Positions 2,257 to 10,778 of a DNA stretch of 11,286 nucleotides are shown one piece after another (position 1 is the stretch's first letter; each line of letters opens with the position of its first letter). Position numbers and translations under genes: made by a program. The notes beneath the pieces were generated by a model. The model did not search any database. It worked only from the letters and a program-made list of their open reading frames with translations, and was not told the DNA's origin. This stretch comes from Chloroflexota bacterium (GTDB lineage: Bacteria; Chloroflexota; Anaerolineae; B4-G1): the NCBI GenBank assembly GCA_024232355.1, contig JAAEPW010000080.1, positions 1 to 11,286 on the forward strand, in the 5' to 3' direction.

Positions 2257-3402
2257 ATGATCCAAGCGCCACTATTCCAAACCATAACCCTCTCCAAACT
2301 CGAATCCCACCTCTGGGAAGCGGCCAACATCCTGCGCGGCAGTCCCGTCGACCGCACCGACTGGAAGAGTTATATCCTGCCCCTGCTCTTTTTCAAACGC
2401 ATCTGCGACGTGTGGGACGAGGAATACGCCGAGGCCGTCGAGACCTACGGCGAGGACTTTAGCGACGAGCACCGCTTCCAGGTTCTCCAGGACTGCCACT
2501 GGACCGTCGTGCGCGAGACCCCGGCCAACGTCGGCACTGCCTTGCAGAACACCCTGCGCGGCATCAAGGCCGTCAACCAGAAACACCTCTATAGCGTATT
2601 TGGCGACGCCCTGTGGAGCAACAAGGATCGCCTGCCCAACAACGATGTGCGCGACGCCTTTGCCGCCGACTATAGCTACCTCTCCAAGTTGTGGGAGGCT
2701 CTCTCGCCCGACCTGATTTTGCAGCAATACGAGACCGATTATCGCTGGCTGTCGCAGGTCTACGTCTCGGTGCAGCCCACCACCGGCGCGGGCCAACTGA
2801 TCTGGCACGCCCTGGGGACCAAGACGGTCGAGTTGATCCACCAACACGTCCACATCGAGGCGATCCACGACGACCTAGACGAGATCGTGCTCGACGCCGA
2901 ACTGCTCGAAGCGGTGCTGGGTACGCCTGATCCGGGCAGGAAAGCGAAAGAAATCGAGATCAAGGTCGCCCGCCGCCTGCGCAAGCACCTGGGCGATCCC
3001 CGCTTCCGCGCCCTGTCCGAGCGCTTGGAAGCCCTCAAGGAGCGTCACGAGCGCGGCCAACTGCACAGCATCGAGTTCCTCAAGCAACTGCTCAACATCG
3101 CCGCCGAACTGGTGAACGTGGAGAAAAACGTCCCGCCCGAAGAGGACGAGGACCGGGGCAAAGCGGCCCTGGGCGAGTTATTCGAAGAAGCGCGCACCGA
3201 GGACACGCCCGTCGTGGTGGAGCGCATCGTCGCCGACATTGACGAGATCGTGCGCCACGTCCGTTTCCCGGATTGGCAGGATACGAGCGCGGGGGAGCGG
3301 GAGGTTAGGAAGGCACTGCGTAAGACTTTGTTCAAGTATAAATTGCATCAGGACAAGGATCTGTTTACCCGGGCGTATGGGTATATTAAGCAGTATTATT
3401 AG
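2257..3402 (+). CDS. Chimeric type I restriction-modification remnant: HsdM N-terminus fused to HsdR C-terminus
   Basis: Residues about 10-127 match the N-terminal helical domain of type I DNA methyltransferase subunits (HsdM_N): LESHLWEAANILRGSP, DWKSYILPLLFFKRICDVWDEE, CHWTVVRETPANVG, and LYSVFGDALWSNKDRLPN. At residue 127-133 (nt about 2635-2655) the match switches to the C-terminal region of type I HsdR subunits: FAADYSYLSKLWEALSPD, DYRWLSQVYVSVQP, KEIEIKVARRLRKHLGDPRF, RLEALKERHERGQ, FPDWQ, AGEREVRKALRKTLFKYKLHQD, and an ending GYIKQYY that is typical of HsdR. The HsdM SAM-binding and NPPF catalytic motifs, the whole specificity subunit, and the HsdR nuclease and helicase motors are absent. 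The frame is intact for 381 residues. The simplest reading is one large in-frame deletion across an hsdM...hsdR locus. The product could not methylate or cut DNA; it may still bind partners through both retained helical domains. The ATG at 2257 is preceded only by a weak purine stretch. The next gene starts 13 nt after its stop. Confidence 0.9.
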   Translation: MIQAPLFQTITLSKLESHLWEAANILRGSPVDRTDWKSYILPLLFFKRICDVWDEEYAEAVETYGEDFSDEHRFQVLQDCHWTVVRETPANVGTALQNTLRGIKAVNQKHLYSVFGDALWSNKDRLPNNDVRDAFAADYSYLSKLWEALSPDLILQQYETDYRWLSQVYVSVQPTTGAGQLIWHALGTKTVELIHQHVHIEAIHDDLDEIVLDAELLEAVLGTPDPGRKAKEIEIKVARRLRKHLGDPRFRALSERLEALKERHERGQLHSIEFLKQLLNIAAELVNVEKNVPPEEDEDRGKAALGELFEEARTEDTPVVVERIVADIDEIVRHVRFPDWQDTSAGEREVRKALRKTLFKYKLHQDKDLFTRAYGYIKQYY

Positions 3403-3415: not shown

Positions 3416-6400
3416 ATGACAGACAATCAAGTGCGTTCGCCCATCAACCCTTACATCGCCGGTGCCCCCGTCAAAGGCGAGACGATGTTCTTTGGCCGCG
3501 ACGACATCTTTGAAGCCATCCGCACCCGCCTGGTTGGAAGGCACCAGGACAACGTCATAGTCATCTACGGCCAGCGGCGCACCGGCAAAACTTCGGTGCT
3601 CTATCAAATGGGCCACCGCTTGAACGAGGATCAAGAGCGTTACGTCGCCGTACTCGTGGACTTGCAAGGGTTAAAGTTGGATGGGGTGGATAACTTTTTG
3701 TGGGAACTGGCCCGTACCATCATACGAGTAGCACATCGTGAGTACCAACTGGACTTGCCAGCCATCGACCGTACTGCTTTCCAAGCCGATGCTCGGGGCG
3801 CCTTTCGCGACAATTTCCTGCCATCGCTGTGTGAGGCCATCGGCGAACGGCGATTGTTGTTAATGTTCGATGAGGCTGTGCGTTTTGAGGAAACGGTTTT
3901 GTCCGGACAGTTAGAACGAGACGTTTTCAATTATCTGCGCAGTCTGATGCAGCATGAGCCTGACCTAAGCTTTATCTTTTCCTTGGGCAGCAAGCTGGAA
4001 CATATGCGCCCGGAATATGCATTGCTGTTCAACACGGCGCTCTATATCAAGGTCAGCTTTCTTGATGAGGTCTCGGCCCGTGCTCTGATCACTGAGCCAG
4101 TGTCTGGACTCTATATCTTTGAAGAAGACGCCATCAATCGCCTGCTGACTTGTACCTCACGCCATCCTTATTTCACCCAAGTGCTGTGCCATACGTTGTT
4201 CACACGTTGGGAGCGAGAGCGATGGAATCGGGTGACTCCGACCCAAGTAGATGCGGTGCTGGATGAGGCTACGGACCTGACTATAGCTAACCTGCAATAC
4301 ATCTGGAACGAAGCCAACCGAACAGAGAAACTTGTCTTGGCAGCCTTGGCCGAGATAAAGTCGGGCAAAGCGAATGTTGACACCCTACTTCGCCATCTAG
4401 AGCAAGGGGGGACTCGCCTGAAACGGCCCAAGATAGTTCGCGCTCTGAGCGAACTGGAACGCCGCCTTGTAATTGATTCGTCTGCCCACCCCCGCTTTTG
4501 TATAGCATTGGTGTATCGTTGGCTAGCTCGCGAAAAGCCGTTAGATTGGGTGCGTGGAGAATTGTCGGTTGTTGATGAAACTAGCTCGGTGATTGAGCCA
4601 GATTATCACCCACGAAGTAAAGATCGGACGCGGCCTACATGGCGCCCAGTATTGGCATTGGGTGTGGTGATGTTGATAGCCTTGGCAGTAGTCTTACTAG
4701 TGCCAGGGATTTCGATGGACTGGCTCTCTCCAACATCATCTGTGATTATACATACCCCGGAATTCTCAGGTGATTATATTGAAAGAGAAGAAAGCATATG
4801 GCGCGCTTGGCTCGGAATTTCCGCTTGCTCGAAAGAGCTTCCGCGTCAAGAAGCATTTACACTGGGTGCAGAGTCATTTTCTTGCCAAGCAGGCAAGCAA
4901 GGTGGAACTGTAACATTCACACTATCGATTCTTCAGCCTGACGACACTCACATGGTTGTTCTGCACGCCCTATGTCCCAAGTCAACAGGCTGTGTTTCTG
5001 CTGTTGACGCTCAGCAAGCTGGTACTCTCTCATTATATGTTGACGAGCAGGTGCTGTGGACTGCTACGTGTTCGAGTGATAGACAATGTGACTATCTTGC
5101 TCTAGGACAAGGTCCATTAGTTGCATTCACGACTGATGTTGTAACACATCAGGTACGTCTTGATGTCTCTCCAGGCATCAACTGGTCAATTGCCGATCTG
5201 GAAGCAGAGTGGATTGAAATACCTGCTTTGATCCAAGGCGTTGCATATAGCCCTTTCCGTGATTGTCAGAATCCCAACACAGGTGTATTCCCCACTGAAC
5301 AGGAGATTCGGGAGGATTTGACGATGATACAGCATATGGGCAATGCTATTCGTACCTATTCTGCTACCGGAACACAAAAATCCATCGCCTTCTTGGCTCA
5401 AGAGGCTGGTTTGCGTGTGAGTGCTGGTGCATCGTTAGGCCCAGATTTGGAGGAGAACGAGAAAGAGATCGCCAACTTGATCGAATTGGCACAAATGGTG
5501 GATTTGGAATCAGTTATTGTGGGCAACGAGGTGATTCTCCGTCGAGACCTAACCCAGGAGCAGTTGATAGGCTATATTCAAAGAGTCAAAGCCAATGTAG
5601 ATGTACCAGTTACTACTGCTGAGATTGAAAGCATCTTTCTGGAATCCCCTGACTTGATAGAATCTGTAGATTATCTGTTAGTTAATATCCATGCTTACTG
5701 GGATGGGCAAGCTATTGAGAATGCAGCGCGCTACGTAATAGACAGGTATCAAGCTATACAGGAGGCAAGTGGAGGCAAGCGTGTAGTAATTGGTGAGACG
5801 GGGTGGCCCTCGTCTGGTCCAGTTAGAGGTAGTGCAGTACCTCGCCCAGAGAATCAATATCGCTTTTTACACGAGTTCCTCATCCTGGCACAACAAAAAG
5901 ATGTCGAGTTTTACTACTTTACTGTCTTTGATGAGTTGTGGAAGACGGAAGGTGGTGTTGGCCCTCATTGGGGTGTGATGTATGCTGACCGGCGCAACAA
6001 ATACAATTTACAAAGCCTTTTAATTCCCCTTACAGAGCAATATCAAGTCTTTCCAATAGCGATGCCATCTACACCGTCCGTGAGTAACGAGAACGTTCTT
6101 TATGTCTATCGTGACTATAGCTCCCAAGAAAATCATTTTGTACCGAGCGGCTGGATCGGAGATATTTCGAGCATTCATTTCAATGATTGCTTTCAGTGGG
6201 ATGACAATTGGATAGACAGAGCTATCGAGGTACAGTATATTCCAAGCCTCACCGATGAGAACGGCTGGGCAGGGATCTATTGGCAGTATCCAGCAAACAA
6301 CTGGGGAACGATGCCTGAAGGATACGATTTGCAAAACTATACTCAGTTGCGTTTCCGTGCCAAAAGCGATCAGAATGGTACCAAAGTCAAGTTTTTTGTC

Positions 6401-7216
6401 GGTGGAGTTTCTGCTGGTGATTACCCTAGTTCAATTCCAGTGCCACTCTATGCCCGTGAGGCAGACTCGGACGGGTTTGTAACACTGAGCACCAACTGGT
6501 ACGAGTTCCACATTGACCTGGTGGATGTTGATCTTAGCCACGTAATTGACGGATTTGGATGGATGGCAGAACGAGATCATGTACCGGATGGCGCTACCTT
6601 GTATTTGGACAATATTCTGTTTGATCAAGATCTTTTACTCTCTCTTCCTATTACTCCTATTACACTGATGCCAACGTCGGTGCCCTCTGTTGACTTGTCA
6701 ACGACACCACCTCAAACTACTATGCCGCTACCAACGTCAGTATCAGCCACACACTTTATCAGCAAATCTCTCGTGTTTGCTGATGGCTATGATATGGGTG
6801 TGAACACGTCAGATGGATTAACTGGGTGGGTTGCTGATATGGGCGGGTATATACGTATGGATTATCCCAGTGGTCAAGATTGGGGAGCGGTGTTCATTAC
6901 TTGGGGAGAACCGACAGGTCGACCACGTCCCTATGTGGATCTATCCAATTATCGAACACTTTCCCTTGAACTGCGCGGAGAGGTCGGTGGTGAGATGGTA
7001 TGGATAGGTCTAAAAGACAATACTGATCCTGACAATGGCTCTGAAACCAAGTTTCTAGTGGATAATCTGACCACAGAATGGCAAACCTTTACGTTCCGTC
7101 TTTCAGATTTCAAGACAGCCAAGCTGACCAAGCTGTATGTAGTGACCGAGTTTGTTTTTGGGCCAAATACGCCAACTGAAACCGTTTACTTTCGCAATAT
7201 TCGGTACTTGCCTTGA
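3416..7216 (+). CDS. Membrane-anchored P-loop ATPase fused to GH17 beta-glucanase-like and carbohydrate-binding domains
   Basis: This is a 1266-residue multidomain protein. Residues 1-375: an AAA/STAND-like ATPase with FFGRDD (25-30), Walker A GQRRTGKTS (52-60), Walker B LLLMFDE (147-153), RHPYF (249-253) and a winged-helix-like end. Residues 411-430: one hydrophobic helix, preceded by a basic stretch (R400-R410), which predicts the ATPase inside the cell and the rest outside. Residues about 445-600: a beta-rich segment with six cysteines (471, 490, 520, 526, 552, 558). Residues 606-870: a glycoside hydrolase family 17-like barrel beginning GVAYSPF, with the acid/base glutamate in VGNE (E705) and the nucleophile in GETGWPS (E794); this family cleaves beta-1,3-glucans. 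Residues 893-1072 and 1115-1264: two carbohydrate-binding-like beta-sandwiches, each closing with a Y-x-x-NI strand (YLDNILF; YFRNIRYL), joined by a Pro/Thr/Ser linker. GC drops after about 4600 (22 of 60 at 5641-5700), suggesting that the outer part has a different origin. The product may sense ATP state inside and act on polysaccharide outside; this role is inference. Confidence 0.9.
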   Translation: MTDNQVRSPINPYIAGAPVKGETMFFGRDDIFEAIRTRLVGRHQDNVIVIYGQRRTGKTSVLYQMGHRLNEDQERYVAVLVDLQGLKLDGVDNFLWELARTIIRVAHREYQLDLPAIDRTAFQADARGAFRDNFLPSLCEAIGERRLLLMFDEAVRFEETVLSGQLERDVFNYLRSLMQHEPDLSFIFSLGSKLEHMRPEYALLFNTALYIKVSFLDEVSARALITEPVSGLYIFEEDAINRLLTCTSRHPYFTQVLCHTLFTRWERERWNRVTPTQVDAVLDEATDLTIANLQYIWNEANRTEKLVLAALAEIKSGKANVDTLLRHLEQGGTRLKRPKIVRALSELERRLVIDSSAHPRFCIALVYRWLAREKPLDWVRGELSVVDETSSVIEPDYHPRSKDRTRPTWRPVLALGVVMLIALAVVLLVPGISMDWLSPTSSVIIHTPEFSGDYIEREESIWRAWLGISACSKELPRQEAFTLGAESFSCQAGKQGGTVTFTLSILQPDDTHMVVLHALCPKSTGCVSAVDAQQAGTLSLYVDEQVLWTATCSSDRQCDYLALGQGPLVAFTTDVVTHQVRLDVSPGINWSIADLEAEWIEIPALIQGVAYSPFRDCQNPNTGVFPTEQEIREDLTMIQHMGNAIRTYSATGTQKSIAFLAQEAGLRVSAGASLGPDLEENEKEIANLIELAQMVDLESVIVGNEVILRRDLTQEQLIGYIQRVKANVDVPVTTAEIESIFLESPDLIESVDYLLVNIHAYWDGQAIENAARYVIDRYQAIQEASGGKRVVIGETGWPSSGPVRGSAVPRPENQYRFLHEFLILAQQKDVEFYYFTVFDELWKTEGGVGPHWGVMYADRRNKYNLQSLLIPLTEQYQVFPIAMPSTPSVSNENVLYVYRDYSSQENHFVPSGWIGDISSIHFNDCFQWDDNWIDRAIEVQYIPSLTDENGWAGIYWQYPANNWGTMPEGYDLQNYTQLRFRAKSDQNGTKVKFFVGGVSAGDYPSSIPVPLYAREADSDGFVTLSTNWYEFHIDLVDVDLSHVIDGFGWMAERDHVPDGATLYLDNILFDQDLLLSLPITPITLMPTSVPSVDLSTTPPQTTMPLPTSVSATHFISKSLVFADGYDMGVNTSDGLTGWVADMGGYIRMDYPSGQDWGAVFITWGEPTGRPRPYVDLSNYRTLSLELRGEVGGEMVWIGLKDNTDPDNGSETKFLVDNLTTEWQTFTFRLSDFKTAKLTKLYVVTEFVFGPNTPTETVYFRNIRYLP

Positions 7217-7279
7217 AAGCAAACCTACACTTTAAAGATGAAATCAGTTGTGAATGACCGAGATATTTAGCTACGACAG

Positions 7280-7337: not shown

Positions 7338-8651
7338 ATGCATCGTAATCCTTTCACCTACGGTAACCCCATCACCAACCCAACCCACTTTATCGGGCGG
7401 AAGAACGAATTGAACCAGGTCCTCACCCGATTGCGCAATGATGCGTTCGAATCATCGTCAATAGTAGGTGAACGACGTGTTGGCAAGACATCGTTACTCC
7501 ACGCATTAGCGGCCAAGCTTGCACCGATTAATGATCAACAGCCAAGTGTGTGTGTTCTCAGCCTCGACCCTCAGATGCTCTCTTCTGAGGCTACGCCTCG
7601 CCGTTTCTGGGACCGCATACTGCGCCAACTAGCTCAGAGATTGCCTAACGGTGACCTCAAGACCGCTGTGGAAGCACTACGTCAAGCTGAGAATATGGAC
7701 ACTTTTGACTTGAGTGATCTCTTCGATCGGTTGGATGATGCCGGGATGTCATTGGTATTGTTGCTGGACGAGTTTGAGCGCGTAGCAGGCAACGCCAATT
7801 TTGGCCCCGATTTCTTTTACGGCCTGCGTTCGCTCGTTATCCATCACCGTCTGGCATTGGTCACCGCCAGTTACGCCGAGCTAAGCAGCCTGTCCCATTC
7901 AGAAGACGTGCGTTCCTCGCCTTTTTTCAACATCTTTGCCACCATCCACCTGGGCCTATTCAAACCGGAAGAAGTGGATCAATTTTTCGAGCGATACCTG
8001 GCGAGCACTGATATTCGTTTCCGAGAAAGCGAGCAAGTTTTTCTGACATCTATCGCCGGGCTTCACCCTTACTACTTGCAAATCGGCGGGAGCTTTTTGT
8101 TCGATGCCTACCAGCAAGGATTGCCTGGGAAAGAGCGTTTGGTCTATGCTCATCGACGATTCACTGCCGAGGCCGAGGATACCCTGGCCTTCACCTGGCG
8201 GCACTCGACCGACGAGGAAAAGATCAGCCTGGCCGTTTTGGCGCTGTTGAGTGCCACAGAACCCAGTGGCGACACGCAAAAATTCAGCGAGAGCAAGCTC
8301 AAAGATTATTACAGCCACGCCGGTCCCACTCTGGCTCAGTTGGTTCGTCGGGGGATAGTGGCCGAACAGAGCGATGGCTACGCCCTATTCTCGACTGTTT
8401 TGGCCGAGTGGATTCGAAACGAACTCCGATCCGGCCTGGCAACGCCTCAAACTTATGAGGCGTGGCTCAAAGACTCGGCCAATCAAGGCCGGCTGACACG
8501 AATCAAGGCCAGTCTGGCAGATGGGGTCAAGGAGCAAGTATTGCCCAAACTCAAGGAAACCTATTGGGAATTGATTGTCGGGTGGCTGACCAATCCAGAG
8601 ACGGTCAAGGCCGCTTTTGATTTGTTGCGCTCGTGGTTGGGGGAAAGATAA
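7338..8651 (+). CDS. STAND/AAA-like ATPase with winged-helix-like C-terminal region
   Basis: This is a soluble protein of 437 residues. The N-terminal NPFTYGNPI and FIGRKNEL (18-25) lead into Walker A GERRVGKTS (44-52) and Walker B LVLLLDEFE (139-147), followed by ASYAELSSL (177-185, a sensor-1-like position) and GLHPYYLQ (241-248), the HPYY element common to archaeal-type ATPase_2 and Chloroflexi STAND-like NTPases. Residues about 285-365 look like a winged helix (EEKISLAVLALL, then LAQLVRRGIVAEQSDGYALFS). The last 70 residues are helical (TYEAWLKDS, ETYWELIVGWL, AAFDLLRSWLG) and unassigned; they may be an effector or partner-binding module. There is no membrane helix, unlike the neighbouring ATPase at 3416, whose ATPase half it resembles in motif order. 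It lies 121 nt after that gene and 23 nt before the DUF4268 gene. A switch or sensor role is inference from the fold. Confidence 0.85.
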   Translation: MHRNPFTYGNPITNPTHFIGRKNELNQVLTRLRNDAFESSSIVGERRVGKTSLLHALAAKLAPINDQQPSVCVLSLDPQMLSSEATPRRFWDRILRQLAQRLPNGDLKTAVEALRQAENMDTFDLSDLFDRLDDAGMSLVLLLDEFERVAGNANFGPDFFYGLRSLVIHHRLALVTASYAELSSLSHSEDVRSSPFFNIFATIHLGLFKPEEVDQFFERYLASTDIRFRESEQVFLTSIAGLHPYYLQIGGSFLFDAYQQGLPGKERLVYAHRRFTAEAEDTLAFTWRHSTDEEKISLAVLALLSATEPSGDTQKFSESKLKDYYSHAGPTLAQLVRRGIVAEQSDGYALFSTVLAEWIRNELRSGLATPQTYEAWLKDSANQGRLTRIKASLADGVKEQVLPKLKETYWELIVGWLTNPETVKAAFDLLRSWLGER

Positions 8652-8660
8652 AGCTACACC

Positions 8661-8666
8661 AGGAGG
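8661..8666 (+). promoter_or_regulatory. Ribosome binding site fixing the start at 8675
   Basis: A perfect AGGAGG lies 8 nt before the ATG at 8675. The frame is open back to 8633, overlapping the previous gene, but that earlier ATG has no such site. Confidence 0.9.
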
Positions 8667-8674
8667 AACACACA

Positions 8675-9604
8675 ATGATTGGCAAACTGCAAAGAGTTTC
8701 TTTACGCGACGTGTGGAAGCACGAAGCTCTGGACTTTACACGCTGGCTTGAGGACAATCTGGACGTCTTGAACGATGCGCTCGACATCACACTCTCTGGC
8801 GCGGAGCGTGAACAATCAGCCGGAGCCTTCAACGTCGACCTGGTTGCAGAAGATGAAGCGGGTAATCCGGTGGTCATTGAAAACCAGCTTGGAAAAAGCG
8901 ACCATGATCACCTGGGAAAACTCATCACTTATTTGACCGCCATTGAAGCAAAAACGGCAATCTGGATCGTCTCCCATCCCAGGCCGGAGCACATGCGCGC
9001 AATTTCTTGGCTGAACGAGTCATCTTTGGCAGCTTTTTACTTGCTCAAGGTAGAAGCGATCAAGATTGGAGATTCAGCACCTGCACCATTGCTGACGCTG
9101 ATCATCGGGCCAAGTGAGGAAAGCCGTGAGGTTGGCAAGACCAAGAAAGAACTGGCAGAGCGGTATAGCATTCGCAAACAATTCTGGACCGGGCTGCTTG
9201 AGAGATCAAGAGCCAAAACGAAATTGCACGCCACCATCTCTCCCGGTCAGCACAGTTCTATCGGGACCGGTGCAGGCAAATATGGCTTGAGTTACAATTA
9301 CACCATCCGCAAAAATGATGGGGACGTCGAACTCTACATTGATCGTGGAAAGGATAGGGAAAGCGAGAACAAGAGTATCTTTGACAGCCTCGCTGAATCC
9401 AAAGATAGCATTGAGGCCGCTGTTGGTGAATCCTTGGATTGGCAGCGGCTCGACAATAAACGCGCCTGTCGGATCAAGAGAAACATTGCCCTGGGAGGTT
9501 ATCGCGACGAGCCTAAATGGCCCGAAGTCCAAGATGCTATGATCGACGCTATGATTCAACTCGAGAAGGCTCTCAGACCACACATCGCAAAGCTGAAGGT
9601 GTGA
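8675..9604 (+). CDS. DUF4268 protein with N-terminal PD-(D/E)XK-like nuclease fold
   Basis: This is a protein of 309 residues. The N-terminal half shows the restriction-endonuclease-like signature: an acidic residue in FNVDLVAED (D55), a beta turn, then VVIENQ (E69 and Q71, an ExQ variant of ExK), and a conserved LGKLITYLTAIEAKTAIWIVS stretch at about 80-100 (helix plus strand). The C-terminal half (about 165-309) matches DUF4268: IRKQFWTGLLERSR, GLSYNYTIRKNDGDVELYID, then LDWQRLD, CRIKRN and a closing helical segment MIQLEKALRPHI. Proteins of this architecture are often found beside restriction-modification and other defence genes, and the context here agrees. With Q in place of K the site may still cut (ExQ occurs in active members) or only bind DNA. 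It follows the ATPase by 23 nt and is followed by another nuclease-fold gene after 28 nt. The exact function is not known. Confidence 0.85.
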   Translation: MIGKLQRVSLRDVWKHEALDFTRWLEDNLDVLNDALDITLSGAEREQSAGAFNVDLVAEDEAGNPVVIENQLGKSDHDHLGKLITYLTAIEAKTAIWIVSHPRPEHMRAISWLNESSLAAFYLLKVEAIKIGDSAPAPLLTLIIGPSEESREVGKTKKELAERYSIRKQFWTGLLERSRAKTKLHATISPGQHSSIGTGAGKYGLSYNYTIRKNDGDVELYIDRGKDRESENKSIFDSLAESKDSIEAAVGESLDWQRLDNKRACRIKRNIALGGYRDEPKWPEVQDAMIDAMIQLEKALRPHIAKLKV

Positions 9605-9632
9605 CAGAACGACGAGGTATGCGAGGACAACA

Positions 9633-10778
9633 ATGACCGGAAAAATCTACCTGTTACAAGAAGACGGTTCCCTACAACCAATGAGCGAGCGTTCCTACGT
9701 CACCGAAGATCGCCTGCAAGTCTTGCTGAGAGACTATCCCGACCTGCTGGCGGGCGACCAGATGGACGAAGAAAACCCGCGCCGCTGGTTGCTGCTATCC
9801 CGCGAGGTAGGAATACCCTTTGAGCAAGATGGACGCGAATGGATGTCGCTCGACCATCTCTTTCTCGACCAGGACGCAATTCCCACCCTGGTAGAAGTCA
9901 AACGCAGCAGCGACACTCGCGTCCGGCGCGAGGTGGTCGGGCAAATGCTCGACTATGCCTCCAATGCCGTCGTGTATTGGTCGGTGGAACGCCTGCGCGC
10001 CCGCTTCGAGGTCGCCTGCGAAGAGCAAAAAGAGGATGCCAATCAACTGGTGGCAGACCTGCTCCAAAGCGATCCGGCAGACAAAACGTCCGTGGACGCT
10101 TTCTGGGAACAGGCACTCACCAACCTGCGCGCCGGAAAGATCCGCCTGGTCTTTGTCGCCGACCAGATTCCGCCCGAACTCGGACGCATCGTCGAGTTTC
10201 TGAACGCCTACATGGCCCCCGTAGAAGTGCTGGCCGTCGAGGTCCGCCAGTACGTGGGCGAGGGGATCAGAACCCTGGTGCCCCAGGTCGTTGGGCAGAC
10301 GTCTCAAGCCCAGGGCCGCAAATCCGGTGGCAGAGCCAAAAAGCGTAAATGGGACGAACCTTCTTTCTTTCGCGAGCTTGAGGAGAGAAATGATGCTGTT
10401 GCGGTTACCATAGCCCGGGCGATTCTCGATTGGGCGCGTTCCAACGTAACGCGCATCTGGTGGGGTGAAGGCATGCGCAGCGGCTCATTTGTGCCGACTC
10501 TGAACTATAATGAGCGAGATCATCAGCTTTGCGCCGTGTGGACGAATGGCGCAGTCGAGATATACTTTTACTGGTTCCAGTACAAACCACCGTTCGACTC
10601 TGAGGAGAAACGACGCGAGTTGCTCGCCCGGCTCAACGCGATCCCCGGCGTATCGCTTCCCGACGACGCTATAGCCAGACGACCGGGCATTCCTCTGTCC
10701 ACGTTGGCGGACGAATCGGCTCTACAACAATTCCTTCACGTGTTCGACTGGGTTGTTCAGGAGATAAAGGCTTTGTAG
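9633..10778 (+). CDS. PD-(D/E)XK-like nuclease-fold protein of unknown function
   Basis: This is a protein of 381 residues. Residues about 22-110 contain a restriction-endonuclease-like core: TEDRLQVLLRDYPDLLAGD (24-42, the opening helix with an acidic residue), SLDHLFLD (D74), then PTLVEVKRSSDTRVRREV with the ExK pair E88/K90, and a following helix VVGQMLDYASNAVVYW. This order is like the NucS/DUF91 type of nuclease. A middle region (about 150-215) has strands IRLVFVADQIP and VEVLAVEVRQY. A basic linker GRKSGGRAKKRKW (228-240) then leads to a C-terminal domain (about 241-381) that I do not recognise by name, with ARSNVTRIWWGEGMRSGSF, FVPTLNY and VEIYFYWFQYKPPF; such tails occur in other defence-associated proteins. 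The ATG has a modest GAGG site 6 nt upstream. It is probably the last gene of the block. DNA cutting is predicted, not shown. Confidence 0.8.
   Translation: MTGKIYLLQEDGSLQPMSERSYVTEDRLQVLLRDYPDLLAGDQMDEENPRRWLLLSREVGIPFEQDGREWMSLDHLFLDQDAIPTLVEVKRSSDTRVRREVVGQMLDYASNAVVYWSVERLRARFEVACEEQKEDANQLVADLLQSDPADKTSVDAFWEQALTNLRAGKIRLVFVADQIPPELGRIVEFLNAYMAPVEVLAVEVRQYVGEGIRTLVPQVVGQTSQAQGRKSGGRAKKRKWDEPSFFRELEERNDAVAVTIARAILDWARSNVTRIWWGEGMRSGSFVPTLNYNERDHQLCAVWTNGAVEIYFYWFQYKPPFDSEEKRRELLARLNAIPGVSLPDDAIARRPGIPLSTLADESALQQFLHVFDWVVQEIKAL

Follow-up and report, generated by a model that had tools for sequence, protein, structure and literature searches.

We analyzed an 11,286-nt stretch of Chloroflexota DNA (contig JAAEPW010000080.1; hereafter the window, to whose full length all coordinates refer). 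The open reading frame (ORF) 3416-7216 on its forward strand codes for a protein of 1266 amino acids that combines an ATPase, a single transmembrane (TM) helix and a domain of glycoside hydrolase family GH17, an arrangement noticed already in the first-pass annotation made from the sequence alone. Domain matches and topology prediction bear out this picture of an intracellular STAND/AAA-type ATPase joined by one TM helix to an outward-facing GH17 domain. The next gene on the same strand, 7338-8651, was absent from that annotation and encodes a second, soluble ATPase of the nSTAND2 type. Below, the ATPase-TM part of the first protein is called the chassis, its variable outer part the payload, and the product of the second gene the partner; L-numbers denote relative loci and P-numbers relative proteins.

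The chassis ATPase module occupies residues 1-384 (3416-4567, forward strand, as are all features of the two genes) and carries the Walker A motif GQRRTGKT and the Walker B motif LLLMFDEA; Walker A and B motifs are kept in the partner as well. At about residue 384 the likeness to most chassis relatives stops. The TM helix (residues 411-429; 4646-4702) is predicted to have the N-in/C-out orientation, with five lysine or arginine residues before it and none after it. AAA_22 is the only Pfam family that passes its cut-off in the window chassis, nSTAND6 reaching 13.5 bits against a cut-off of 27.7. Some chassis relatives pass the nSTAND1 cut-off of 27.1 (L001, for example, with 31.1 bits), and because of these relatives and the kinship with the partner we call the chassis STAND-like. 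In an alignment of 80 chassis sequences, the window included, GKT of Walker A is kept in 79 and DE of Walker B in all 80. The exception is probably L035, where the chassis gene (7986-10552) lies in two overlapping frames and is broken or misassembled. A count with a narrow joint Walker A and B pattern, which recognised 65 of 79 chassis and, on the partner side, 65 of 68 sequences, was too strict; for the chassis it was replaced by the alignment.

The outer part starts with a cysteine-rich beta-sandwich (residues 446-600; 4751-5215), each of whose six cysteines is kept in 23 to 30 of 36 aligned sequences. It is followed by a complete GH17 TIM barrel (residues 602-873; 5219-6034), and the initial assignment of residues 606-870 to this family was upheld by the profile PF00332 (55.6 bits, cut-off 28.2). 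The two catalytic glutamates, which we assume to occupy the beta-4 and beta-7 positions, are both present and invariant in all 36 aligned sequences: E705 (5528-5530, motif IVGNEV) is presumably the acid/base, and E794 (5795-5797, motif GETGWP) is taken to be the nucleophile. E794 aligns with the glutamate replaced by alanine in the active-site mutant 4wtr. The barrel is followed by two further beta-sandwiches that resemble carbohydrate-binding modules (CBMs): residues 894-1070 (6095-6625), with more than one match in some relatives, and residues 1113-1266 (6752-7213), preceded by a low-confidence linker (residues 1077-1110). The two CBMs claimed earlier are present as sandwiches of the appropriate kind, but in the window protein CBM30 and CBM_11 reach only 15.1 and 13.7 bits, below the cut-off of 27, and therefore we file both domains as CBM-like only. 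CBM30 is matched by 9 of the 36 aligned sequences at E<=0.01. The VIA comparison covered chiefly model residues 67-440, so that the sandwiches were scarcely probed by fold.

The partner (7338-8651) is a STAND NTPase by its match to PF20702 (nSTAND2; 42.8 bits, cut-off 24). The mechanical ORF opens at 7254; the ATG at 7338 is favoured as the start because of homology with L001, low model confidence for residues 1-26, and an upstream AAGGAG. Two alignments, of 27 and of 40 partners, both include the window partner; nSTAND2 is matched by every sequence in them, D172 and E173 are invariant in both, and Walker A is kept in 67 of 68 partners. The structural model, with a predicted local distance difference test score (pLDDT) of 87.9, resembles the archaeal ATPases 2qen and 2fna, ORC2 and plant NLRs, that is, a winged-helix-bearing NLR/ORC-like fold. 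No long hydrophobic stretch was seen in the partner sequence or model, and few partners from other loci have a predicted TM segment.

Comparison of the chassis with its relatives revealed a large family with variable outer parts. A search with residues 1-460 yielded 563 proteins, and most of the best 120, which were taken for analysis, consist of the common ATPase, a TM helix and then differing outer domains. The Pfam domains of the payloads include FGE-sulfatase, TPR, Reg_prop, PD40 and WD40 propellers, CAP, papain, subtilisin, M23 and LamG, and GH17 is listed for the window protein alone among the 120. The architecture described at first as unusual is so in one respect: the combination of ATPase and GH17 was found only here, whereas an ATPase followed by a TM helix and an outer domain is common in Chloroflexota. 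The ATPase-side and whole-length searches together gave 121 complete relatives of the ATPase-first layout, the window included. All 121 have a TM helix after the ATPase, with more lysine and arginine residues on the ATPase side in 109, equal numbers in 10 and fewer in 2. Their outer parts form 21 payload families (52, 35, 10 and 3 members, then 2 or 1), and the payload changed at least 29 times on the ATPase tree, the floor for 21 states being 20. In the largest family (52 of 121), propeller-type Pfam domains occur in 11 of the 12 members listed. Four near relatives of this layout, at 49-72% identity, each carry another payload: an unknown one in P0002, FGE and M23 in P0003, TPR and FGE in P0004, and TPR in P0006. 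Judged from sequence comparison, the ATPase-TM part is a Chloroflexota chassis with a freely exchanged outer part. Glycoside hydrolase-like barrels noticed by eye in P0012, P0014 and P0032 were rejected, as none has Pfam support and those in P0012 and P0032 find no support from solved sequences either.

The chassis and the partner are encoded together and diverge together. A chassis profile scan of genome contigs found 272 relatives. We kept the 80 best-scoring loci regardless of pairing, and all of them are from Chloroflexota as judged by their titles; they comprise class 1 (ATPase first, outer part after the TM helix) and class 2 (ATPase last). A partner is encoded on the same strand in 69 of the 80 loci, in 59 of them within 300 nt. 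In ten of the 11 partnerless loci the contig ends no more than 1.3 kb away on the side where the nearest group has its partner; the only other one, L032, has a short chassis ORF and 2.7 kb free, yet no partner. Among 251 genomes of the phylum, chassis matches occur in 44 and partner matches in 51, and of 44 chassis-like matches of at least 60 bits, 32 lie within 7 kb of a partner-like match, with both on one strand in 28 cases. When 67 pairs were placed in one tree, a single branch with a Shimodaira-Hasegawa-like approximate likelihood ratio test (SH-aLRT) value of 100 splits the 67 chassis from the 67 partners. Pairwise distances of chassis and partners are correlated with r=0.95 over the 67 loci and 0.92 over 28 class-1 loci, and the observed value was reached by 0 of 2000 permutations in either set. 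In L001 (Thermoflexia bacterium G79), the chassis and the partner are 69% and 75% identical to those of the window and stand in the same gene order. No conserved third gene accompanies the pair, the next clusters being present in at most 11 of the 80 loci. By shared contig prefix, several pairs per genome, sometimes of both classes, were observed (L005/L028/L050, L003/L012, L004/L059 and L045/L080), as expected of a sensor repertoire.

The relatives also differ in their putative inputs and outputs. The part before the ATPase in class 2 is polytopic in most loci; in the L067 group it crosses the membrane once or twice, and L067 itself shows propellers ahead of the ATPase. This mirror-image architecture, with a polytopic N-terminus and a C-terminal chassis ATPase, was seen in most of L036-L071 (excluding L038, L067 and L069), and a GAF domain lies in the polytopic N-terminal part of L042. 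We scanned 65 of the 69 other partners for domains, 39 from class 2 and 26 from class 1; ten of the class-1 partners were also scanned individually. Class-2 partners contain Pkinase (27 of 39) and OmpR-type Trans_reg_C (10 of 39), those of the 39 with neither being probably the truncated L050 and L053, and class-1 partners contain LuxR-type GerE (6 of 26), TIR_2 (2 of 26) and EAD7 (2 of 26). Loci with a LuxR- or OmpR-type partner include L007-L011, L035 and L067. In L021 (13461-15173) and L034 (12800-14545), the partner ATPase has a C-terminal TIR domain and adjoins a long chassis protein with a TM helix at about residues 870-890. A sensor-responder pair would be expected to look like this, with one protein varying in its membrane or outer domains and the second in its signalling modules. 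The signalling across the membrane suggested by the first-pass annotation is strengthened by these swappable ectodomains, the co-diverging partner, and the kinase, DNA-binding and TIR domains on the partners of relatives.

The outer part of the window protein has relatives of a different kind. A search with the GH17 part yielded 305 proteins, of which the best 120 were taken; P0121, the closest among those listed, is 63% identical over residues 450-1266 and has at its N-terminus a signal-peptide-like stretch followed by a TP-rich linker. Among 127 GH17-side relatives drawn from this and the whole-length search, 111 have a hydrophobic N-terminus, 48 have a lipobox-like motif and none has a Walker A motif. 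Like the window protein, these Chloroflexota GH17-CBM surface proteins (P0121 and others) are ordered as N-terminal sandwich, GH17, CBM-like 1 and CBM-like 2; in place of its ATPase and TM helix they have signal-peptide-like N-termini and, in many of those listed, TP-rich linkers. The GH17 ectodomain elsewhere is thus, as predicted from these features, a surface protein without an ATPase. In the whole-length search, which scored just the 7994 candidates with the most words in common and gave 80 matches, only the query spans both the ATPase and GH17. GH17 matches were found in 18 of 396 genomes of the class, with no open frame longer than 930 amino acids among the matches listed, and in 1 of 251 genomes of the phylum, and a scan of genome contigs with the full protein gave no match. 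No relative was found among viral contigs, and plasmids gave two weak matches only (27% and 34% identity).

Two-component systems pair a membrane sensor of variable input with a soluble partner of variable output, encoded adjacently and co-diverging. The window pair is similar in this layout and differs in that both of its halves are ATPases; histidine-kinase and receiver matches are listed neither for the window pair nor for the partner sets. Among published gene pairs, the nSTAND2 two-gene operon, proposed as a counter-invader system (PMC8195603, eLife 2021), comes closest. There, too, two adjacent genes have constant STAND NTPase cores and variable fused modules, but one NTPase is described as eroded and the effectors are mostly GT4 or HEPN; the window pair shares the adjacency and lacks the erosion of NTP-binding motifs, and the partners of its relatives carry kinase, helix-turn-helix (HTH), TIR or EAD7 domains instead. 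Section 15 of that paper mentions neither a TM helix nor an ectodomain, whereas one ATPase of the window pair is membrane-anchored with an outer payload. GT4 and HEPN have no match in the window pair or among the families listed for the 65 scanned partners, the chassis payloads being covered in part. The closest functional parallel is RsgI6 of Clostridium thermocellum, whose outer GH10 domain has very low activity and is thought to be a polysaccharide sensor, according to the portions of PMC4711584 that treat it. As portrayed in those portions, RsgI biosensors likewise combine a cytoplasmic regulator, a membrane span and a glycoside hydrolase or CBM outside, and the GH10 domain of RsgI6 shares 57% identity with a secreted xylanase, comparable to the 63% between the window outer part and a surface-type GH17 protein. 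RsgI6 differs, in the same portions, by its inner anti-sigma domain, its GH10 instead of GH17, and the lack of a STAND partner. At E<=0.1, none of the eight window ORFs scanned matched an RsgI or sigma-factor family of Pfam; the stretch 8633-9601 is touched by two sporulation-sigma models of NCBIfam, with scores far short of the cut-off. STAND NTPases with CLec or FGE domains, in the excerpts of PMC10907252 concerned with them, also have a variable recognition domain and belong to multicellular bacteria, and FGE is among the payloads here; they vary through diversity-generating retroelements, whereas the chassis swaps whole unrelated domains that are predicted to be extracellular. The membrane version appears undescribed in the open-access PMC literature, although a subscription, preprint or differently worded account may exist.

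The other genes of the window were considered as possible context. An HsdM_N-bearing protein (2257-3402, forward strand) ends 13 nt before the chassis gene; it has HsdM_N at its start (64.4 bits) and a weak T1RH-like_C match at its end (19.4 bits, below cut-off), and resembles the beginning of a type I methylase joined to an HsdR-like end. Chassis-like ATPases were seen in proteins labelled as N-6 DNA methylase or type I methylase, namely P0267 (31%) and H1 in NZ_MH220285.1 (27%), and a link of the chassis ATPase to type I systems is possible. Downstream on the same strand lie a PDC-S11 family gene (DUF4268; 8675-9604, 461.5 bits), 23 nt past the partner, and a weaker PDC-S11-like gene (9633-10778, 51.5 bits), two candidate-defence genes side by side. 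None of these three neighbours is matched in the 80 relative loci, and therefore they say little about the role of the pair. On the reverse strand, 1496-1816 encodes an N-terminal fragment of 106 amino acids (Pfam AAA_16 20.8 bits, below cut-off), for which the ORF list shows no continuation; it resembles, we assume, a MalT/LuxR-type STAND regulator and is probably a decayed gene.

On balance, we favour the reading that ORF 3416-7216 encodes the membrane-bound half of an ATP-driven sensor-responder system made up of two Chloroflexota proteins, and that its GH17-CBM head, of a type known otherwise from surface glucanases, recognises beta-glucan. Outside the cell, the GH17 barrel and the two CBM-like domains would bind, and perhaps nibble, beta-1,3-glucan; this engagement would move the single TM helix or change its clustering; on the inner side, the STAND/ORC-like ATPase would alter its nucleotide or assembly state jointly with the nSTAND2 partner, which would relay the signal onward. 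Sequence shows the domains, the pattern of the topology, the pairing and joint divergence, the swapping of outer domains and the output domains on relatives' partners; the glucan ligand, a physical contact between the two ATPases, their switching by ATP and the output of this pair are what we infer in this scheme. Rather tentatively, we further propose that Chloroflexota hold a previously undescribed ATP-based counterpart of two-component systems, consisting of a STAND-like sensor with an exchangeable ectodomain and a co-diverging nSTAND2 responder (kinase, DNA-binding, TIR or EAD7), the GH17 version of which would read beta-glucan.

Several observations weigh against the sensor-responder reading. 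The window partner has no recognised output domain and none of the kinase, HTH, TIR and EAD7 domains of relatives' partners; among the 26 other class-1 partners that were scanned, no more than 10 have such a domain. Chassis and partner share their nearest relative by identity in just 28 of the 67 loci, and P0005 (53% identical) carries its ATPase C-terminally, so that the class-1 layout is not the sole one nearby. Only one protein with both ATPase and GH17 was found, and the conservation of the combination cannot be judged. The G+C content at third codon positions is 0.42 in the ectodomain against 0.60 in the chassis and 0.61 in the partner (difference -0.18); most outer parts in 26 control loci show a lower value as well (mean difference -0.08, standard deviation 0.08, lowest -0.295), and this dip was rejected as a mark of recent capture, being not exceptional among them. 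Both GH17 glutamates are kept as in enzymes, which makes a plain surface enzyme possible, and several other payloads are enzyme-like (FGE, M23, papain and subtilisin by Pfam).

The last two points, together with the surface-like features of the nearest GH17 relatives, speak for a tethered surface beta-1,3-glucanase or transglucosylase serving feeding or remodelling, whose placement, clustering or release would be controlled by the ATPase pair, with no information passing from the head to the pair. We regard this as unlikely, though deserving serious consideration, since many payloads resemble ligand-binding propellers and relatives have HTH and kinase domains on their partners, both of which fit inward signalling better. 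A conflict system, in which the pair detects a surface intruder or competitor, for example a glucan-bearing one, and triggers defence or suicide, would agree with the role proposed for nSTAND2 operons (PMC8195603), with the TIR and EAD7 domains of class-1 partners and with the PDC-S11 genes directly downstream; we consider it slightly less likely still, as the PDC-S11 and HsdM-like genes are unmatched in the relative loci, and kinase or DNA-binding domains give 43 matches against 4 for TIR or EAD7 among the 65 partners scanned. The first-pass annotation had called a defence or competition role possible from placement among nuclease-fold genes; with the neighbours unmatched, this placement is weak evidence for defence, although relatives with TIR or EAD7 keep such a role possible. 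Neither self-directed damage nor an attack on an envelope or capsule found support, and the earlier interpretation is supported in part. It is very improbable that the protein is an assembly chimera of two misjoined genes. The fusion was found only once, and likeness to the chassis ends at about residue 384 and likeness to GH17 surface proteins begins at about 450; but the join is in frame and coincides with a domain border, each of the 121 complete chassis relatives continues beyond a TM helix, and the chassis's own partner sits after the GH17 part, so that a chimera would require two misjoins, of which one would have to preserve the frame.

The analysis widens the finding from one odd protein to a large modular family of paired ATPases, of which one GH17-headed member has been found so far. 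NLR-type ATPases have mostly been studied as cytoplasmic immune switches. If the sensor-responder reading is true, membrane receptors with interchangeable heads and a paired, output-bearing ATPase would tie bacterial immune-type NTPases to environmental sensing. The fusion suggests a route from a surface glucanase to a receptor head, and the GH17 member, with beta-1,3-glucan as a guessable ligand, makes the idea of an ATP switch directly testable. For Chloroflexota, these paired switch proteins form a large, little-studied family whose outer parts seem to have been swapped, probably for sensing different external things.

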